Virus record (IMG/VR): IMGVR_UViG_3300036866_000026
Span: 1 to 29,514 of that record
DNA: 29,514 nucleotides
Reading direction: 5' to 3' (one strand)
DNA from: a virus
Below the pieces are notes generated by a model. That model was not told the origin of the DNA. It worked only from the letters and a program-made list of their open reading frames with translations, and made no database searches. Positions 2,492 through 19,457 of this stretch are shown piece after piece. Every line of letters starts with the position of its first letter. The stretch's first letter is position 1. A program made the translations under genes and the position numbers.

Positions 2492-3292
2492 TTAGCCCTG
2501 AGACTCGACATAGCAGCCTTGCACGCTCGCCGGCGCGGTGCCGAGGCTGTAAATCCAGAACGGCACGACGCCGTTGTACAGCCGCGCGAAGCCGCCCGAG
2601 ATGCAGTCGATCGAGCCCTGGTTCGTGTTCACCGTGACCATGGCGAGCGGACGGAACGCGACGACGTTGATGGTTCCGGAGGTCCACGCATTCGAGAGCG
2701 TGATCGACTGCACGGACTTTACCCCGACGTCCCCCGCCTGGAGGCCGATGATCCAGGTCGATCCCGCGACCGGGGCGCCAACCGTCGCCGTCATGTTCGT
2801 CCCGCTGCGACTCGCGGTGCCGGCGCTATTGGTGTAGCCGAGGGTGAAGGTCGGCGTCGCAGCGCCGACGACCGTCGCCGAGACATCGACCGCGAGCAAC
2901 ACGCCGACGCCGCTCGTTCCGCCGACGGTATCCCGCGAGGGCCACGTCGCGGACGTGATGCTCTGCGCGATCGTGGACGTGACATCGATGTTGCCGTTGT
3001 CCCATATGCGATCGCAGAGCAACGCCCAGCCGCCGGTGGTGCCGGTGAGGTGCGAGAAGTGCGCGCGGGTGAGGTAGGAGAAGAGGCCGCCGCCCGGGTC
3101 GGTATGCGGTAGTTGTCCGTTGACCGGCGCGGTGTAGGTTCCGCCATTCAGCGTGTTGTTCCACGTGCCCGCGCCGGGGATACCTGGTTGGCCCCAGGAG
3201 CTCTGCGTACGGACGATCGCGGCGGAGGGTTTGGCGAACGAGCGGACCGGCTGACAGCCCGCGAGCATTCCGTCCAAGGTGGTGATAGCCAT
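2492..3292 (-). CDS. Virion-type protein, tandem paralogue 3 of 3
   Basis: A 266-residue member of a family with three tandem copies in this window. Shared landmarks with the two upstream copies are an N-terminal MAITTLDGMLAG, a QSSWGQPGIPGAG block near residue 30, LLCDRIWDNG near 92, W-P-[SA]-R-D near 117, an LQAGD-GV-S-QSI-S-AWTSGT-N-VA-R block near 192-216, a GG/AGF/L-x-L/I-[YF]NG-VPF block near 240, and a final E[ST]QG. The composition (Gly, Thr, Ser, Asn, few Lys) fits a beta-rich exposed virion protein. This copy is the most diverged of the three. It follows the middle copy with a 3-base gap. Function is unknown; a tail-tip or decoration role is possible. Confidence 0.7.
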   Translation of the reverse strand: MAITTLDGMLAGCQPVRSFAKPSAAIVRTQSSWGQPGIPGAGTWNNTLNGGTYTAPVNGQLPHTDPGGGLFSYLTRAHFSHLTGTTGGWALLCDRIWDNGNIDVTSTIAQSITSATWPSRDTVGGTSGVGVLLAVDVSATVVGAATPTFTLGYTNSAGTASRSGTNMTATVGAPVAGSTWIIGLQAGDVGVKSVQSITLSNAWTSGTINVVAFRPLAMVTVNTNQGSIDCISGGFARLYNGVVPFWIYSLGTAPASVQGCYVESQG

Positions 3293-3295
3293 CGC

Positions 3296-4108
3296 TTACC
3301 CCTGCGTCTCGATGTAGTGGAACCCAGTGATCGGCTGCGAGACTGCGGCGGGGATCACGATGATGAACGGAACCGTGCCGTTGAAAATCTGCGGGAAGCC
3401 CGCGGTGATCGCATCGATCGCGGCCGCAGTGCCGATGCCGCCATTGTCCATCACGGCGAGTACGCGGTAGGCCACCATGTTCATCGTGCCCGAGGTCCAT
3501 GCGGTCGAGAAGTTGATCGACTGGATCGACTGGACGCCGGTGTCGCCCGCCTGGAGACTCAAGCGAAAGAACCTGCCCGCTGCGGTTGTCGCGGCGGTCG
3601 GGGCGTCGAGGAAGTTTCCGGTACGCGAGCCGGTGCCGGATTGGTTGGTGTACGTGTAATTCGTGAGCGCCGCCGCAGTGGAGGAGACCGTGGAGGCGAT
3701 TTCGATCCCGATCAGCACGCCGTCGCCATTCGTCGTTCCGGCGACGTCGCGCGCGGGCCACGCGACGCTGTTGACCGTCTGCGCGCCCGTCGTGTTGATC
3801 GCCGGGCGGCCGTCCCACAGTCGGTCGCAGAGCATGACCGTGCCGCTGTTGATCGACCAGGAGTTCTGGAAGCGCGCGAGGTAGGAGTTGGTTCCACCAG
3901 GGGGATCGAAGTGCGGGATTCCCCCGGTGACTGGAGAGGTGTAGGTCGCACCCGCGATCCCGGTGTTGAATCCCCCCGCTCCTGGCTGACCGGCGAGTCC
4001 CCACAGACTCTGCGGCATGAACGCGACGAGTGCGGGCGGGATGGGTTTGACGATCACCTGCACCGGCTGCAGGCCACCGATCACGCCGTTCAGTGTAGTG
4101 ATAGCCAT
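3296..4108 (-). CDS. Virion-type protein, tandem paralogue 2 of 3
   Basis: A 270-residue middle copy of the tandem trio. I chose the ATG at 4108 because the protein then begins MAITTLNGVIGGLQP, matching both relatives, and because the ATG shares one base with the upstream TAA (TAATG coupling). An open frame continues upstream but only as the shadow of the first copy. It shares with the first copy a long stretch around YTYTNQSG, SRTGNF, DAPTA and TG.QSIQSI.FSTAWT. The family is unknown to me. Probably an exposed beta-rich structural protein made in series with its neighbours. Confidence 0.72.
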   Translation of the reverse strand: MAITTLNGVIGGLQPVQVIVKPIPPALVAFMPQSLWGLAGQPGAGGFNTGIAGATYTSPVTGGIPHFDPPGGTNSYLARFQNSWSINSGTVMLCDRLWDGRPAINTTGAQTVNSVAWPARDVAGTTNGDGVLIGIEIASTVSSTAAALTNYTYTNQSGTGSRTGNFLDAPTAATTAAGRFFRLSLQAGDTGVQSIQSINFSTAWTSGTMNMVAYRVLAVMDNGGIGTAAAIDAITAGFPQIFNGTVPFIIVIPAAVSQPITGFHYIETQG

Positions 4109-4929
4109 TAGCCTTGCGTCTCCATGTACCAACCCTGGAAGCCCGTTGCAGTGGTGAGATTCGGGACGTGCACGAGAAAGGGCACGACGCCGTTGAAGAG
4201 TTGCGGCAGGCCGCTCGTGACCGGATCGACGAAGTTCGGCGTGGTGGCGAGCGGATTCTCGAGCACCGATAGCACGCGGTAGGCGACCATGTTGACGGTG
4301 CCGGTCGTCCACGCGGTGGAGAACTGGATGCTCTGGATCGACTGGATGCCGGTGTCTGGCGACTGGAGCGCTAGGCGGTAGAACTGCCCGGCGTTCGCCG
4401 CGACTGCGGTGGGCGCATCGATGAAGTTGCCCGTGCGCGAGGCGACTCCCGACTGGTTGGTGTACGTGTAGTTGGTGAGTGCAGCAGCGGTGGCTGAGGT
4501 CGCGGCGGAGACTTCGATCGCCGCGACGATGCCGACGCCGTTCGTGGTGCCGGTCGCATCGCGCGCGGGCCACGCCGCGGTGTTGATCGTCTGTGCGCCG
4601 GTGCTGTTGATCGTGAGCTGGTTGTCCCATATGCGATCGCACAGCAGCGTCACTCCACCGTTGCCGCCGGCGTGGATCTGAAATCGGGCGAGGTAGGCGC
4701 TCACGCCTCCGGCAGGATCCGTGTGCGGGATCTGGCCGTTGACCATTGCGCTCGAGGAGCTGTAGTTCGCGCCGGCGAGCGTGCCGTTGTAGCTGCCGGG
4801 GCCGGGAAGTCCCGCGATCGCCCACAGACTCTGCGGGCGCCCGACGACCAGTGTCGGGGTCGCGCCCTTGTAGATCAGGGTGCCGGGTTGGAATCCCGCC
4901 AGTACGCCATTCAGGGTGGAGATTGTCAT
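4108..4929 (-). CDS. Virion-type protein, tandem paralogue 1 of 3
   Basis: A 273-residue first copy of the trio, starting MTISTLNGVLAGFQPG and ending METQG. It is closest to the middle copy: both contain YTYTNQSG followed by SRTGNF, and INxTGAQT[IV]N before AWPARD. DNA-level similarity to the third copy persists in places: 21 identical bases at 4621-4641 and 2996-3016. It lies 8 bases downstream of the tail-spike gene, so it may act with the adsorption apparatus. No signal peptide, membrane segment or catalytic motif is visible. Function unknown. Confidence 0.72.
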   Translation of the reverse strand: MTISTLNGVLAGFQPGTLIYKGATPTLVVGRPQSLWAIAGLPGPGSYNGTLAGANYSSSSAMVNGQIPHTDPAGGVSAYLARFQIHAGGNGGVTLLCDRIWDNQLTINSTGAQTINTAAWPARDATGTTNGVGIVAAIEVSAATSATAAALTNYTYTNQSGVASRTGNFIDAPTAVAANAGQFYRLALQSPDTGIQSIQSIQFSTAWTTGTVNMVAYRVLSVLENPLATTPNFVDPVTSGLPQLFNGVVPFLVHVPNLTTATGFQGWYMETQG

Positions 4930-14987: not shown

Positions 14988-15106
14988 TCGCGGCAATCCT
15001 GGCGGCGCTGCGGCGGATTTTGCCGCGGCGCAAGCCGCCGCTTCTCCCTCCACCCTCCAAAGCCTGCGAGCGCGGCAAAGCCGAATGCGCCGGGAGGATC
15101 CGATGA
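14984..15106 (+). CDS. Very small hydrophobic/basic peptide
   Basis: A 40-residue frame beginning at GTG 14984, overlapping the preceding TGA, with GGGAG eight bases upstream. It has a short hydrophobic start (VIAAILAALRRIL), then a basic Pro-rich tail (PRRKPPLLPPP) and two Cys. Its stop overlaps the next ATG (ATGA). It is supported mainly by the tight overlaps on both sides. Function unknown. Confidence 0.4.
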   Translation: MIAAILAALRRILPRRKPPLLPPPSKACERGKAECAGRIR

Positions 15107-15363
15107 ATATCTCCGAACCGTTTCCTTTCACGCTGGCACAGAAGCCCGCGCGGCTCTACGTGCTCCGCAACGACGGCTATTGCTGGGGGCGCGTGATCGA
15201 TCACGCCGGCCTGGAGTGGGACGTCAGCACACACCACGACTACTACGGCGAGCCCGACGAGATAGCCGCCGAGGCATTCATCCGCAAGGCCCAGCGGTTC
15301 CAGCTCCAGCTCCCCGCAGGCTCACCGATCCTACCGACCCGTCTTCAGGAGTTACCGAAATGA
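15103..15363 (+). CDS. Hypothetical protein
   Basis: An 86-residue protein with a good GGGAGG ribosome site. It is beta-rich at first (PARLYVLRNDGYCWGRVIDH, LEWDVSTHHDYYGEPDE), ending in a helix (AAEAFIRKAQRFQL). No family recognised. It directly precedes the ERF recombinase (ATGA overlap), so it is likely in the same transcript. Confidence 0.6.
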   Translation: MNISEPFPFTLAQKPARLYVLRNDGYCWGRVIDHAGLEWDVSTHHDYYGEPDEIAAEAFIRKAQRFQLQLPAGSPILPTRLQELPK

Positions 15364-16142
15364 ACGAACCGACTGCAATCATTGACCGCCGCACGATGCG
15401 GGAGCTGGCGCCGGCCAGCTCCCCGACTGCGGTCACACCGATGGACCTGCTACGCGTCGCCACCAACCAGGGCGCCGACCTCGACAAGCTCGAAAAGCTC
15501 ATGGAAATGCAGCAGAAGTGGGAGGCGAGCGAAGCCCGCAAAGCCTACGCGGCGGCTTTTGCCGCGTTCAAGGCCGACCCTCCCAAGATCCAGAAGAACA
15601 AGCATGTGCAGTTCGCCACCAAGAGCGGCGACCGCATGGACTACTGGCACGCCACGCACGATGAAGTCTGCGGGAAGGTCGCGGCGGCTTTGGCCGCGCA
15701 CGGACTCGCCCACGCGTGGCGCATGCGCCAGGAGTCAGGCGTGATCTACGTCACCTGCCGGCTGACGCATCAGGCTGGGCATTACGAGGAGTTCGAGCTG
15801 TTCGGCAATCCCGACGGTTCGGGACTCAAGTCTCCGCTGCAAGCCGTGGCCTCGACCATCACGTTCCTGCAGCGGTACACGCTGCTGGGCGCGTGCGGAC
15901 TCTCGACGTCCGAACAGTCGGCCGCGGATACGGACGGCGGCTCGCGACCGACCGAGCCCGAGCCCGAGGGGTACGCGGAGTGGCGCGACAACCTCGACGC
16001 CGTGCCGGATGACCAGCTCGCCGAGTTCGACTTCAGCGCGTACTGGCGCAAGGCGACGCCGGCGATCCGCCGCTACGTGGTGAAGTTCGCCGAGGCATGG
16101 TGGAACGGCAAGCGCAACCTCGCCGAGAAGGGGGTGCAATGA
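15360..16142 (+). CDS. erf: ERF-family single-strand annealing recombinase
   Basis: A 260-residue protein that fits the ERF (P22 essential recombination function) family. ERF proteins anneal complementary single strands and work with a 5'-3' exonuclease. The core (about residues 40-190) contains EARKAYAAAFAAFKADPPKI, then the typical KNKHVQFATKSG, WHATHDEV, AALAAHGLAHAWR, and the LKSPLQAVASTITFLQRYTLLGACGL block with conserved SxxTYxxRY-like character. The C-terminal part (after about 205) is acidic then helical. The exonuclease gene follows with an ATGA overlap, the normal pairing. Confidence 0.85.
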   Translation: MNEPTAIIDRRTMRELAPASSPTAVTPMDLLRVATNQGADLDKLEKLMEMQQKWEASEARKAYAAAFAAFKADPPKIQKNKHVQFATKSGDRMDYWHATHDEVCGKVAAALAAHGLAHAWRMRQESGVIYVTCRLTHQAGHYEEFELFGNPDGSGLKSPLQAVASTITFLQRYTLLGACGLSTSEQSAADTDGGSRPTEPEPEGYAEWRDNLDAVPDDQLAEFDFSAYWRKATPAIRRYVVKFAEAWWNGKRNLAEKGVQ

Positions 16143-16795
16143 ACCGCTTCACCATCATCAACTGTGAGCAGCGCACTCCCGAGTGGTATCAGGCACGCGC
16201 AGGACGCGCGACCGGCTCCAAAGCCGACGCGATCCACGCCCGCTCGCGAGACCGCAAGGAGGAGGGAGTCACGCGCCGCAACTACCGGGTACAGCTAGTC
16301 GCCGAGCGGCTCACTGGTCAGCCCCAGGAGAACGATTACCAGTCGCGCGCCATGGCGAACGGCGTGGAGAAGGAGCCGAGTGCCATCGCTGCATACGAGG
16401 CAGCCACGGGGCTCCTGGTGCGGCGGACTGGGTTCCTAGCCATGTCCGAGTACGCCGCGGGGTGCTCACTCGATGGGGACGTGGACGACTTCCGCATCAT
16501 CCTCTCGGTCAAGTGCCCCGAGGCGCCGGCGCATCTCAAGTATCTGTGGGAGCGGCGCATCCCGCCCGAGTACGTCAAGCAGGCGACGCACGAGCTGTGG
16601 GTGACGGGCGCGAAGATCTACGACTTCGTTTCGTACAACGAATCCTTCCCCGAACACCTGCAGCTCCTGATCGTGCGCGCCGATCGCGGCGAGTTCGACA
16701 TTGCCGGCCACGAGATGGGCACGATCCAGTTCCTGCGCGAAGTGGATGACGAACTCCGCAAGCTCGAAAAGTGGACCCCGCCGGTGCTCCTGTGA
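16139..16795 (+). CDS. YqaJ/lambda-type exonuclease, with Ser in place of an expected Glu
   Basis: A 218-residue probable 5'-3' exonuclease partner of ERF. The N-terminus has the family pattern QRTPEWYQARAGRATGSKA. The next landmarks are GVEKEPSAIAAYE (about 75-87) and the active-site Asp in GCSLDGDV (Asp112). The last motif is normally Glu-x-Lys-Cys-Pro, but here reads LSVKCP, with Ser123, Val124 and Lys125. The Glu is therefore replaced by Ser. C-terminal features (HELWVTGAKIYDFVSYN, LQLLIVRADR) are as expected. Either another acidic residue serves, or the subfamily uses a variant site, or activity is altered. The length is normal. Confidence 0.82.
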   Translation: MNRFTIINCEQRTPEWYQARAGRATGSKADAIHARSRDRKEEGVTRRNYRVQLVAERLTGQPQENDYQSRAMANGVEKEPSAIAAYEAATGLLVRRTGFLAMSEYAAGCSLDGDVDDFRIILSVKCPEAPAHLKYLWERRIPPEYVKQATHELWVTGAKIYDFVSYNESFPEHLQLLIVRADRGEFDIAGHEMGTIQFLREVDDELRKLEKWTPPVLL

Positions 16796-17058
16796 CCGAG
16801 CGATTTGAAGCGTGGTTCGAGGACATGCGGCGCCGCGCATGGAAGAACTTACGGGCGGGGTACGAGAACGAGCCGATGGCGGAATCGTATCTCCTGCTCC
16901 TCAAGCCCTATCTCAGGGAACCATTCGACGAAATCGAGCGGCTGACGCGCTCGCGGGAGGATCACATCCACGACTGGACTCTCTGGACCGATTGGCAAGG
17001 TGGTTTGCGCTCGCGCTTCTGCCGTACCTGCGGGACGATTGAGGACCAGCAAGGATGA
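16792..17058 (+). CDS. Small hypothetical protein with C-terminal Cys pair
   Basis: An 88-residue protein starting at GTG 16792, which overlaps the exonuclease stop by GTGA. The helical N-terminal part includes FEAWFEDMRRRAWKNL. The end has HDWTLWTDWQGGLRSRFCRTCG, with a C-x2-C that could be half of a zinc site. It overlaps the next gene by ATGA. It is in the recombination block, but its role is unknown. Confidence 0.58.
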   Translation: MTERFEAWFEDMRRRAWKNLRAGYENEPMAESYLLLLKPYLREPFDEIERLTRSREDHIHDWTLWTDWQGGLRSRFCRTCGTIEDQQG

Positions 17059-17453
17059 GCAAACTCTGGCTCGCGCGCCGCGGCAAGGTCTTGATCCCAA
17101 CCGATCAGCAGTCGGAGCGATTCATCCGCAAGATGGAGCCGGGCGAGTGCGCGGTCTTCGAGGCTTCGCGCCCGCGATCCGTGCAGTGGAACCGGATGTA
17201 CTGGGCACTGTGCCGCAGCATCGGCGAGAACCAGGACCCTCCCCGCGACGAATCCTCCATCGACCTCGAGCTGCGGATCCGCGCGGGTCACTTCGAGATA
17301 TTCCTGATGGACGGGCACGAAATCCGCGTGCCGAAAACGATCCGCTTTGCGGAGATGGACGCCGACGCATGGGCGGAACTGTGGCCCTCCATCGAGCAAG
17401 CCATTACCGATCGGTTCGGCGCGGAGTACATTCAGGAGTCGCGATGGACCTAA
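17055..17453 (+). CDS. DUF1367-like phage protein
   Basis: A 132-residue protein resembling DUF1367: WNRMYWALCRSIGENQ, a DLELRIRAGHFEIFLMDG block, VPKTIRFAEMDADAWAELWPS and a helical end. This family occurs in lambdoid early regions near ninB-type genes and its function is unknown. It lies between a small zinc-type protein and the DUF1364 gene with overlaps on both sides, matching lambdoid gene order. Assignment is by pattern only. Confidence 0.65.
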   Translation: MSKLWLARRGKVLIPTDQQSERFIRKMEPGECAVFEASRPRSVQWNRMYWALCRSIGENQDPPRDESSIDLELRIRAGHFEIFLMDGHEIRVPKTIRFAEMDADAWAELWPSIEQAITDRFGAEYIQESRWT

Positions 17454-17734
17454 GAGCACTCGCGCGCGACAAACCCTGTTACCTGCGGATCCCCGCGATC
17501 TGCAACCGCGACAATAAAACCACCGTGCTCTGCCACCTAAAAGGCTGGGGCTGGTGCGGCTCGATTAAACCACCCGACCTGTGCGCCGTCCCCGGCTGTT
17601 CCGCCTGCCACGACGTGATCGACGGACGCAACACGCACCACGGCTACACGCGCGACCAACTTGCGGCATTTATCCTGCGCGCGCTGCTTGAACTACTCAC
17701 CGACTACGCCGGCAACGGCATCGTCCACTGGTAA
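17444..17734 (+). CDS. DUF1364 putative nuclease/zinc protein
   Basis: A 96-residue protein in the DUF1364 style. Visible motifs are DKPCYLRIPAICN at the start, VLCHLKGWGWCGSIKPPD in the middle and a C-x2-CHDVIDGR (about residues 50-60) near the centre-end. The Cys/His pairs make a small HNH-like or zinc-ribbon fold. The family is common in lambdoid nin regions and is often annotated as a putative nuclease or NinG-like. The ATG at 17444 overlaps the preceding gene by ten bases and avoids the long upstream frame. The next gene has its own AAGGAG site. Confidence 0.75.
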   Translation: MDLRALARDKPCYLRIPAICNRDNKTTVLCHLKGWGWCGSIKPPDLCAVPGCSACHDVIDGRNTHHGYTRDQLAAFILRALLELLTDYAGNGIVHW

Positions 17735-17744
17735 GGAGATCGCA

Positions 17745-18146
17745 ATGGACTACGAATTTACCTCCGACAACATCGTCATCGGCCCGGTCAATCCCGCCTT
17801 CCACTACTCCATGGGCCTCTCGGACTTCGCGCCCTGGTTCGACCTCGCCGTGTTCGTCGGGCCGAAGGAGTACGACCTCGGCCACCTGCCGGCGAACGCG
17901 TCCCTCACCTTCTGGAGCGCGACCCCGCTCAACCTCGGCATGATCGGCTACCTCGACGGGCGCGACTCGATCAACTACCTATGGTCCAACACCGAAATCG
18001 ACGTGCATGCCGTCAACGCCGGTGCGGGGTGGGCCCACGCCCACGCCCAACCGACCGCGGCCGTGCCCGAGCCCGCCCTGCTGGGTCTCATGGTCTGCGC
18101 ACTGTGCGCGCTGTGGTGGACACGGCGATACGCCTCCGCAACCTGA
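17745..18146 (+). CDS. Phage protein with PEP-CTERM-like sorting tail
   Basis: A 133-residue protein with a clear AAGGAG ribosome site. The C-terminus has all three parts of a PEP-CTERM sorting signal: VPEP at 107-110, a hydrophobic helix (ALLGLMVCALCALWW, 111-125), and a short basic tail (TRRYASAT). The body is beta-rich and Asn/Asp-rich (NASLTFWSATPLNLGMIG, NYLWSNTEIDVHAV) with no recognised domain. In bacteria such tails are recognised by an exosortase. No N-terminal signal peptide is visible, so export would need another route, or the tail is a simple membrane anchor. It sits in the phage early block, not in a host operon. Confidence 0.66.
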   Translation: MDYEFTSDNIVIGPVNPAFHYSMGLSDFAPWFDLAVFVGPKEYDLGHLPANASLTFWSATPLNLGMIGYLDGRDSINYLWSNTEIDVHAVNAGAGWAHAHAQPTAAVPEPALLGLMVCALCALWWTRRYASAT

Positions 18147-18238
18147 CACCGGACAACCTAGTCACGCTCTGCGTTCTCTTGGGCGCATTGGTATGGGGTC
18201 TGCTGATCATCGTGGGAGCGATCCTATGGATATTCTGA
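18116..18238 (+). CDS. Small single-TM protein overlapping the PEP-CTERM gene
   Basis: A 40-residue protein from a GTG at 18116 (or 18113). Its second half is one clear membrane helix (NLVTLCVLLGALVWGLLIIVGAILWIF, residues about 14-40) preceded by a short polar end (DTAIRLRNLTPD). It overlaps the 3' end of the PEP-CTERM-like gene by 31 bases in another frame. No strong ribosome site is seen, so translation may depend on coupling. Membrane function unknown. Confidence 0.52.
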   Translation: MDTAIRLRNLTPDNLVTLCVLLGALVWGLLIIVGAILWIF

Positions 18239-18327
18239 AGCCGCATTACCGCTATTGTTACGTCTCTGCGGTCTGGAAGCTGTGCGCGGAGTTCTCTCCC
18301 GCGATCTATCCACTGGAGTTGAAATGA
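18226..18327 (+). CDS. Tiny hypothetical peptide
   Basis: A 33-residue frame starting MDILKPHYRYCYVSAVWKLC and ending LELK. It overlaps the upstream membrane-protein gene by 13 bases (ATG inside it) and the next gene by ATGA. A GGGAG lies about ten bases before the ATG. It contains two Cys and several aromatics. Only the tight packing supports it. Function unknown. Confidence 0.35.
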   Translation: MDILKPHYRYCYVSAVWKLCAEFSPAIYPLELK

Positions 18328-18542
18328 ACGAACAGCGAACCACTGAACACCGAGTCTCCCGCATGTGCACCTGTGCCATGCACTGCGTCGAATCCTCGCA
18401 CCATGACAGCCAGTGCTGTCGAAAGGAACATTGTGACTGCTGGTGCCATAGTCGCCTACGTGTATCTAGGGCTCCTACTCCTGGCGCCGGTCTGGCTAGT
18501 GGCGGTAGTGATTTACGAGCTATGGAGCATCCTGCGCCATGA
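18324..18542 (+). CDS. Small Cys-rich protein
   Basis: A 72-residue frame beginning MNEQRTTEHRVSRMCTCAMHC. Residues about 15-43 hold nine Cys, with several His (CTCAMHCVES, SQCCRKEHCDCWCH). This is suggestive of metal binding or disulfides. The later part (SRLRVSRAPTPG and on) overlaps a membrane-protein gene in another frame, so the real protein may depend on the first 45 residues only. Its N-terminus resembles that of the gene at 18539 (MTEQRTIEQRLS), suggesting a local duplication. Confidence 0.45.
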   Translation: MNEQRTTEHRVSRMCTCAMHCVESSHHDSQCCRKEHCDCWCHSRLRVSRAPTPGAGLASGGSDLRAMEHPAP

Positions 18543-18546
18543 CTGA
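18403..18546 (+). CDS. Small membrane protein nested in the Cys-rich frame
   Basis: A 47-residue frame from ATG 18403: a polar start (MTASAVERN), then a long hydrophobic helix (IVTAGAIVAYVYLGLLLLAP, VWLVAVVIYELW) of 30 or so residues, enough for one long or two short membrane spans, and a polar end LRHD. It lies almost wholly inside the Cys-rich frame and overlaps the next gene by eight bases (ATGACTGA). Its strong hydrophobic pattern is the main support. Function unknown; a holin- or antiholin-like role cannot be excluded. Confidence 0.5.
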   Translation: MTASAVERNIVTAGAIVAYVYLGLLLLAPVWLVAVVIYELWSILRHD

Positions 18547-18742
18547 GCAGCGAACTATCGAACAGCGCCTCTCTGAATATTTGGCTCGCAAGATTTTCGA
18601 GGCGCCGTGGCCAAGGGCAACCGTTAGCCGCATTGCCTTCAGGGGTGTGCCGGTGGATGGCATAGAGCCGGACTTGGGCGGTCTCTGCGAGACTGCGCTG
18701 GCTGACCGGATTCGCGAAGCAATGGAGAAATATCCGTGGTAG
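18539..18742 (+). CDS. Small hypothetical protein
   Basis: A 67-residue soluble protein. It begins MTEQRTIEQRLSEYLARKIFE, similar to the start of the gene at 18324. The rest (PRATVSRIAFRGVPVDGI, LADRIREAMEKYPW) is a mixed helix/strand segment. It overlaps the upstream membrane-protein gene by eight bases and the next gene by seven. Unknown function. Confidence 0.55.
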   Translation: MTEQRTIEQRLSEYLARKIFEAPWPRATVSRIAFRGVPVDGIEPDLGGLCETALADRIREAMEKYPW

Positions 18743-19209
18743 AGCAGCGTCCATCGGACCTTAGCAACGGATTCCAACGAATTGTAACGATGCGCCCGGC
18801 GTTCGATAAGCGCTCGGCTGATCCCAAGAAGAACTACGGAATTCACGGGGTCGAAATGCGCATGGTGCTCAAGGGGCCGCTGGGGGCTACTCAGTTCCTG
18901 CTGTTCACGAACTGGCAGCTGCCGCACATCACCAAAGAGCACATGGCGCGATGGGCTGGCGACCCCTCGATGTCAAAGACGCTATTCCTGCCCATGCCGG
19001 CGGATAAGGGTTACCACTGGTCTACGCCACGATATGAGGATCAGAAACCGATGACCTGCGACCTCCTACCTGGCGGCCAGTGCTATTACGACGGCAGTAG
19101 TTTGAACGCCGAGCAGACGTTCGACCGCCTGCTGAGAGAGGGCGACGAGGGCGTGTGGAAGGACCTGGAAGAGTACTACCACTACCTCGCGCAGGAGAAA
19201 GCAGCGTGA
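18736..19209 (+). CDS. Conserved phage hypothetical protein
   Basis: A 157-residue protein starting at GTG 18736. It has the features of a common phage family of unknown function: GIHGVEMRMVLKGPLGATQFLLFTNW near residues 35-60, then ADKGYHWSTPRYEDQKPM, CYYDGSSLNAEQTFDRLL and a final helix with WKDLEEYYHYL. It overlaps the preceding gene by seven bases and the next by GTGA. A host-takeover or metabolic role is possible, but nothing indicates which. Confidence 0.7.
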   Translation: MVEQRPSDLSNGFQRIVTMRPAFDKRSADPKKNYGIHGVEMRMVLKGPLGATQFLLFTNWQLPHITKEHMARWAGDPSMSKTLFLPMPADKGYHWSTPRYEDQKPMTCDLLPGGQCYYDGSSLNAEQTFDRLLREGDEGVWKDLEEYYHYLAQEKAA

Positions 19210-19457
19210 TTAACAATCCGAAACAGTCCGTCGAAGTGACCTCAAAGAACCAGCTCACCCGCGACGAGTGGACGATGACCGGCGCGATAGCGACCAACCG
19301 GACAGCTCCGCCGATACCGTTTGAGTCGCATTGGGTGCGAGCCGAATGGGCCGACGCCGAAATCGAGCGGCTTAGCGCCGAGACGGCGCGATTGACGCGC
19401 GAGCGGGATGAATTGATGGATAGGCTTCATCAGCCGTGCAAGAGCTGCGGCCAATGA
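19206..19457 (+). CDS. Coiled-coil hypothetical protein with C-terminal Cys pair
   Basis: An 83-residue protein beginning at GTG 19206 (GTGA overlap). The second half is a coiled coil (WADAEIERLSAETARLTRERDELMDRL) and the C-terminus has a C-x2-C (CKSCGQ). The next gene also combines Cys pairs with a coiled coil, so the two may be related or work together. Overlap with the next gene is ATGA. Unknown function. Confidence 0.58.
   Translation: MINNPKQSVEVTSKNQLTRDEWTMTGAIATNRTAPPIPFESHWVRAEWADAEIERLSAETARLTRERDELMDRLHQPCKSCGQ

Follow-up and report, generated by a model that had tools for sequence, protein, structure and literature searches.

The gene and its neighbourhood

The window, that is, the whole stretch of 29,514 nucleotides of the virus record IMGVR_UViG_3300036866_000026, carries a run of recombination genes on one strand. 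An Erf-like single-strand annealing protein (15360..16142, +; phrog_155, E 5e-30) is followed by a phage exonuclease (16142..16795, +; phrog_149, E 1.4e-30), a NinB/Orf recombination mediator (17055..17453, +; phrog_319, E 7e-13) and an HNH endonuclease (17444..17734, +; phrog_131, E 2e-24). The next gene in this order (17745-18146, +) codes for P0001, a product of 133 amino acids, and is the subject of the present work. Between the end of the HNH gene at 17734 and its own ATG at 17745 lie 10 bases. A Shine-Dalgarno motif recognized in the sequence, AAGGAGA (17733..17739, +), overlaps the stop codon (TAA) of the HNH reading frame, with 5 bases left between it and the ATG. This ribosome site, together with a GC3 of 0.90, as in neighbouring and other genes of the phage, tells us that the gene is real. 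It is presumably translated from the same early transcript as the HNH gene. Its place behind these four genes, all on its own strand, justifies calling it an 'early gene', as the original prediction did. A scan of positions 15000-19300 of the window for promoters and terminators gave nothing above chance.

The closest phage that we found, L001 (IMGVR_UViG_3300043788_000069), shares the Erf (61%), exonuclease (55%), NinB (64%) and HNH (55%) proteins. What follows the HNH gene there is not the gene of P0001 but a small gene and another that, from a reading of its sequence, is integrase-like. Two further phages, L024 and L016, share the HNH gene, with yet other unrelated genes behind it. As unrelated genes thus follow the same HNH gene in these three phages, P0001 sits in a variable cargo slot. 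Relatives of the protein itself did not turn up. A tblastn search of phages and plasmids gave no homologue, and neither did a comparison with the PDB. The same was true of short peptide patterns in viral and genome contigs, and of three DNA patterns run against viral contigs, one for the tail and two degenerate ones for the N-terminus, all of which reach close relatives only. A genome scan for prophages and host with the Erf alignment gave no result.

Other features of the window deserve mention in their own right. Three consecutive small open reading frames (ORFs) on the plus strand, at 18325, 18539 and 18736, have similar starts (MNEQRTTEHR, MTEQRTIEQR and MVEQRPSD), and look as if the start region had been duplicated. 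If translation began at a GTG behind GAAAGGAA, the region at about 18430-18546 (+) would yield a membrane peptide of less than 40 residues, with an ATGA overlap with the next gene. On the minus strand, at 2492-4929, three adjoining genes of about 270 codons each, with starts MAITTLDGMLAG, MAITTLNGVIGG and MTISTLNGVLAG, have the appearance of tandem paralogues; they are probably virion appendages.

Architecture and charge of P0001

The three-part carboxy-terminal tail announced by the original prediction is exactly there. An N-terminal region (residues 1-106; 17745..18062, +) is followed by VPEP (residues 107-110; 18063..18074, +). Then comes a predicted membrane helix, a hydrophobic stretch of 16 residues by hydropathy (residues 111-126; 18075..18122, +), and finally the basic end RRYASAT (residues 127-133; 18123..18143, +). 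The layout thus reads VPEP-ALLGLMVCALCALWWT-RRYASAT, with Pro-Glu-Pro, membrane helix and basic cluster in this order, the arginine pair (R127-R128) directly after the helix and only 5 residues beyond it. It was also rightly stated that no N-terminal signal peptide is visible: none of the possible starts between 17619 and 18146, the limits of the frame from stop to stop, gives a hydrophobic N-terminus. The idea that an upstream signal peptide was lost by frameshift was rejected, the HNH gene being intact to its stop at 17734.

The charge of the N-terminal region is out of the ordinary. It comprises 1 lysine and 1 arginine, with 8 aspartates and 3 glutamates. Two K+R in 106 residues has a binomial probability of 0.0003-0.001 at an expected content of 10-11.5%. 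For comparison, the K+R content is 9-20% in early genes of this phage that come close to it in size, and 3-6% in the phage's own virion appendage proteins. As a control, we considered ORFs that also combine a transmembrane segment with a basic end: only 1 of 52 has 2% K+R or less before the helix. There is no basic residue in the 30 residues preceding the helix of P0001, and two arginines come after it. With its single-sequence input, AlphaFold2 gave a model of mean pLDDT 47, in which a helix at 109-130, with a core pLDDT in the 70s, is the sole moderately confident part; this low-confidence model suggests beta strands at 9-79 and a disordered linker.

These data bear on one view of the protein, that of an ordinary tail-anchored product with a cytoplasmic N-terminal domain, its VPEP motif being there by chance. 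The lack of a signal peptide is in keeping with it, while the distribution of charges is the opposite of that which the positive-inside rule asks of a cytoplasmic N-terminus. As for chance, a helix with a basic end (two basic residues) is found in about 1.5% of ORFs of at least 60 codons in viral loci not chosen by PEP motif, and chance should put a [VIALT]PEP[ASTG] in the proper position in about 2.4e-6 of ORFs, or about 1 per 400,000. Over the 48 or so genes of a contig, this amounts to about 1e-4. A chance VPEP tail is therefore rare for a single window but possible when very many contigs are read, and large collections should hold some cases. All in all, we regard a cytoplasmic tail-anchored protein as distinctly unlikely.

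Resemblance of the tail to PEP-CTERM signals

The PEP-CTERM model PF07589 matches P0001 over its full length (1-24/24; residues 106-128 of 133), with 16.0 bits and an E value of 0.013, against a curated cut-off of 20.7 bits. TIGR02595 gives 12.5 bits, under its cut-off of 16 bits. Weak matches come from five more subfamily models, PEP-CTERM or exosortase-related, making six PEP-CTERM models with TIGR02595. A model made from 37 phage-borne tails, narrow since it is built around VPEP[AS]T, gives 11.7 bits, versus at least 28 for genuine tails. The expected match to the PEP-CTERM family thus exists, yet it falls short of both thresholds. Moreover, a VPEPATLA that lies within phage proteins of about 678 amino acids, and is no tail, reaches 15.8 bits on PF07589, so that 16 bits alone is no proof of a sorting signal; this, too, speaks for a motif met by chance.

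Does the match simply reflect any helix followed by arginines? A control set speaks against this: 54 ORFs, taken from viral loci, that end in a helix and basic residues but have no PEP. Each PEP-CTERM model matches at most 1 of the 54 control tails at E≤1 (best E 3e-5). Judging by the tails, the one that matches is most probably L079 (3160-3798; tail VAEPVSLAILGTGLLGLGLVRNRRR), which is itself a variant of the PEP-CTERM motif; this variant apart, motif-less control tails give no PEP-CTERM match. As the controls yield almost no matches, P0001 owes its own to the combination of VPEP and helix rather than to having a tail of the general kind.

Other features go along with the family (TIGR02595 and PF07589, substrates of exosortase/EpsH). 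Besides PEP motif, helix and basic end, P0001 shares a spacing of 16 residues between PEP and RR, equal to that of genuine tails such as VPEPATLALLGVGLLGLGLVRQRR. The tail also lies at the extreme C-terminus, defined by fewer than 10 extra residues (PMC1569441), and the scarcity of lysine and arginine in the ectodomain is typical of genuine PEP-CTERM proteins (PMC1569441). P0001 differs from them in that both models score under cut-off, that no homologue was found, and that it has no signal peptide, a feature present in 97% of PEP-CTERM proteins (Haft 2006; PMC1569441). With a sub-threshold tail and two defining features failing (model cut-off and signal peptide), we do not file P0001 as a PEP-CTERM protein. 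The tail, the early position and the existence of phages that carry PEP-CTERM proteins (see below) uphold part of the original prediction. Its central claim, that the tail is a signal recognized by exosortases, is left unsupported by scores below cut-off, the lack of a signal peptide and the lack of a homologue keeping the tail. Part of what it had named as speaking against itself was indeed found, namely a weak model match and no homologues.

PEP-CTERM proteins carried by phages

In the course of this survey, genuine PEP-CTERM proteins, complete with signal peptides, emerged as cargo of phages, lying inside phage modules in L118 and L101. Erf-related records, when searched, gave one 36-bit match to PF07589, a 195-residue protein with a signal peptide (L118, 9522-10109, −), whose gene lies between helicase/methyltransferase genes and terminase/portal genes. 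Another (L101, 2437-3093, +) has genes for a major head protein and a tail spike close by; the surroundings of both were checked by family search only. Two more proteins with signal peptides come from virus records (L115, 6494-7168, +; L083, 12218-12862, −). These four, of about 195-224 amino acids, reach 25-27 bits on TIGR02595, and all eight phage-borne PEP-CTERM proteins tested pass this model (20-28.6 bits). They have in common with P0001 their presence in a virus record, the tail architecture and a low-K/R ectodomain; they differ from it in their signal peptides and their scores, and are unrelated to it in sequence. Searching viral contigs with a DNA pattern that codes for VPEPAT[LF]A brought up 74 stretches; in 45 of them an ORF passes a simple tail test, and among these that of L087 looks like chance. 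Some of the contigs with PEP-CTERM tails may include host flanks.

Some side observations belong here. At least 15 viral contigs contain members of a family whose signal peptides resemble MKHALL..AGAMFFHAPAYA, with ILSFGQT coming next. Two records that were not picked for a PEP-CTERM tail have tails over the cut-off: L120 (1488-2390, −; tail TPEPGSILLLGSGALGAAGMLRRR) and a 157-kb record, that of L129, with two such genes. PEP-CTERM genes may thus be common in environmental phages. In the open-access literature searched, we found no description of phages carrying genuine PEP-CTERM proteins as cargo.

By a simple rule, 33 of 37 distinct full-length tail ORFs from all fetched loci have a signal peptide. 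The four without it are L085, L095, L119 (chance) and P0001. L095 (2618-3004, +) is a shortened copy of an L050-type phage PEP-CTERM gene, which has kept its tail. With this example, and with its composition and tail architecture, P0001 might be seen as decayed PEP-CTERM cargo, a gene of host origin that lost its signal peptide and is no longer sent to exosortase. A good ribosome site, a GC3 of 0.90 and an intact frame are no signs of decay, and we found no relative with a signal peptide; decay is accordingly a very unlikely explanation.

Alternatively, P0001 might be a working substrate that does without a signal peptide: its N-terminal tail would be translocated, VPEP would come to the periplasmic face, a host exosortase would cut there and the protein would go to the surface or matrix. 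The full-length PF07589 match with the six further models, the spacing and position of the tail, an ectodomain with 2% K+R (mostly 0-5% in the genuine phage set) and the presence of genuine PEP-CTERM genes in such phages would all fit. Against it stand the two sub-threshold scores, the 11.7 bits on the phage-borne tail model and the signal peptides of 33 of 37 tail ORFs and 97% of the family (Haft 2006; PMC1569441). We consider it possible, though on the whole improbable. Neither the window nor any of 39 virus records selected for PEP-CTERM-like genes contains an exosortase gene, so that the enzyme would have to come from the host.

A proposed periplasm-facing membrane protein

The likeliest account, to which we give about an even chance, is that P0001 is a C-terminally anchored inner-membrane protein, encoded in a cargo slot and facing the periplasm. 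We infer its topology (from charge only), its insertion route and its role. A moron-like early cargo gene would make a small inner-membrane protein anchored by a single C-terminal helix. With 2 positive residues in the 106 before the helix and RR just after it, the positive-inside rule predicts an N-out, C-in orientation, in which the acidic N-terminal domain would face the periplasm. This is the orientation that a PEP-CTERM protein needs, here without a signal peptide, which would in principle solve the puzzle raised by the original prediction. Insertion would proceed by N-tail translocation, in the way of ProW. Whitley is said to have reported, in 1994 and 1995 (cited in PMC6110835), translocation of a 100-residue N-terminal tail in E. 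coli ProW, and the construction of a C-terminal translocation signal. If the topology is right, P0001 would resemble ProW in having a tail of about 100 residues without signal peptide before a membrane helix; ProW is polytopic while P0001 would have a single helix, and no sequence relation is expected.

Such a protein might serve, for instance, to exclude superinfecting phages or to modify the envelope, working from the periplasmic side of the infected cell. The VPEP of P0001 would be there by chance, or as a relic or variant of a PEP-CTERM tail, and exosortase cleavage would not be needed. In favour of this account are a real gene beside recombination genes, a variable slot with an integrase close by in L001, and scores under cut-off for both PEP-CTERM models. 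Against leaving PEP-CTERM aside is the match of six such models, which shows a VPEP signal exceeding that of a generic helix with arginines, and the presence of low-K/R ectodomains in genuine PEP-CTERM proteins as well.

That P0001 enters the exosortase pathway by N-tail translocation, displaying a phage domain on the surface of the infected cell or blocking exosortase, seems unlikely to us. If true, it would reveal a phage exploiting or blocking this pathway, and an exosortase substrate that dispenses with the signal peptide, which the present model does not foresee. PEP-CTERM genes as phage cargo, a by-product of our survey, are maybe weightier than P0001 itself: they lead to the testable idea that phages remodel the surface and floc proteins of their hosts.
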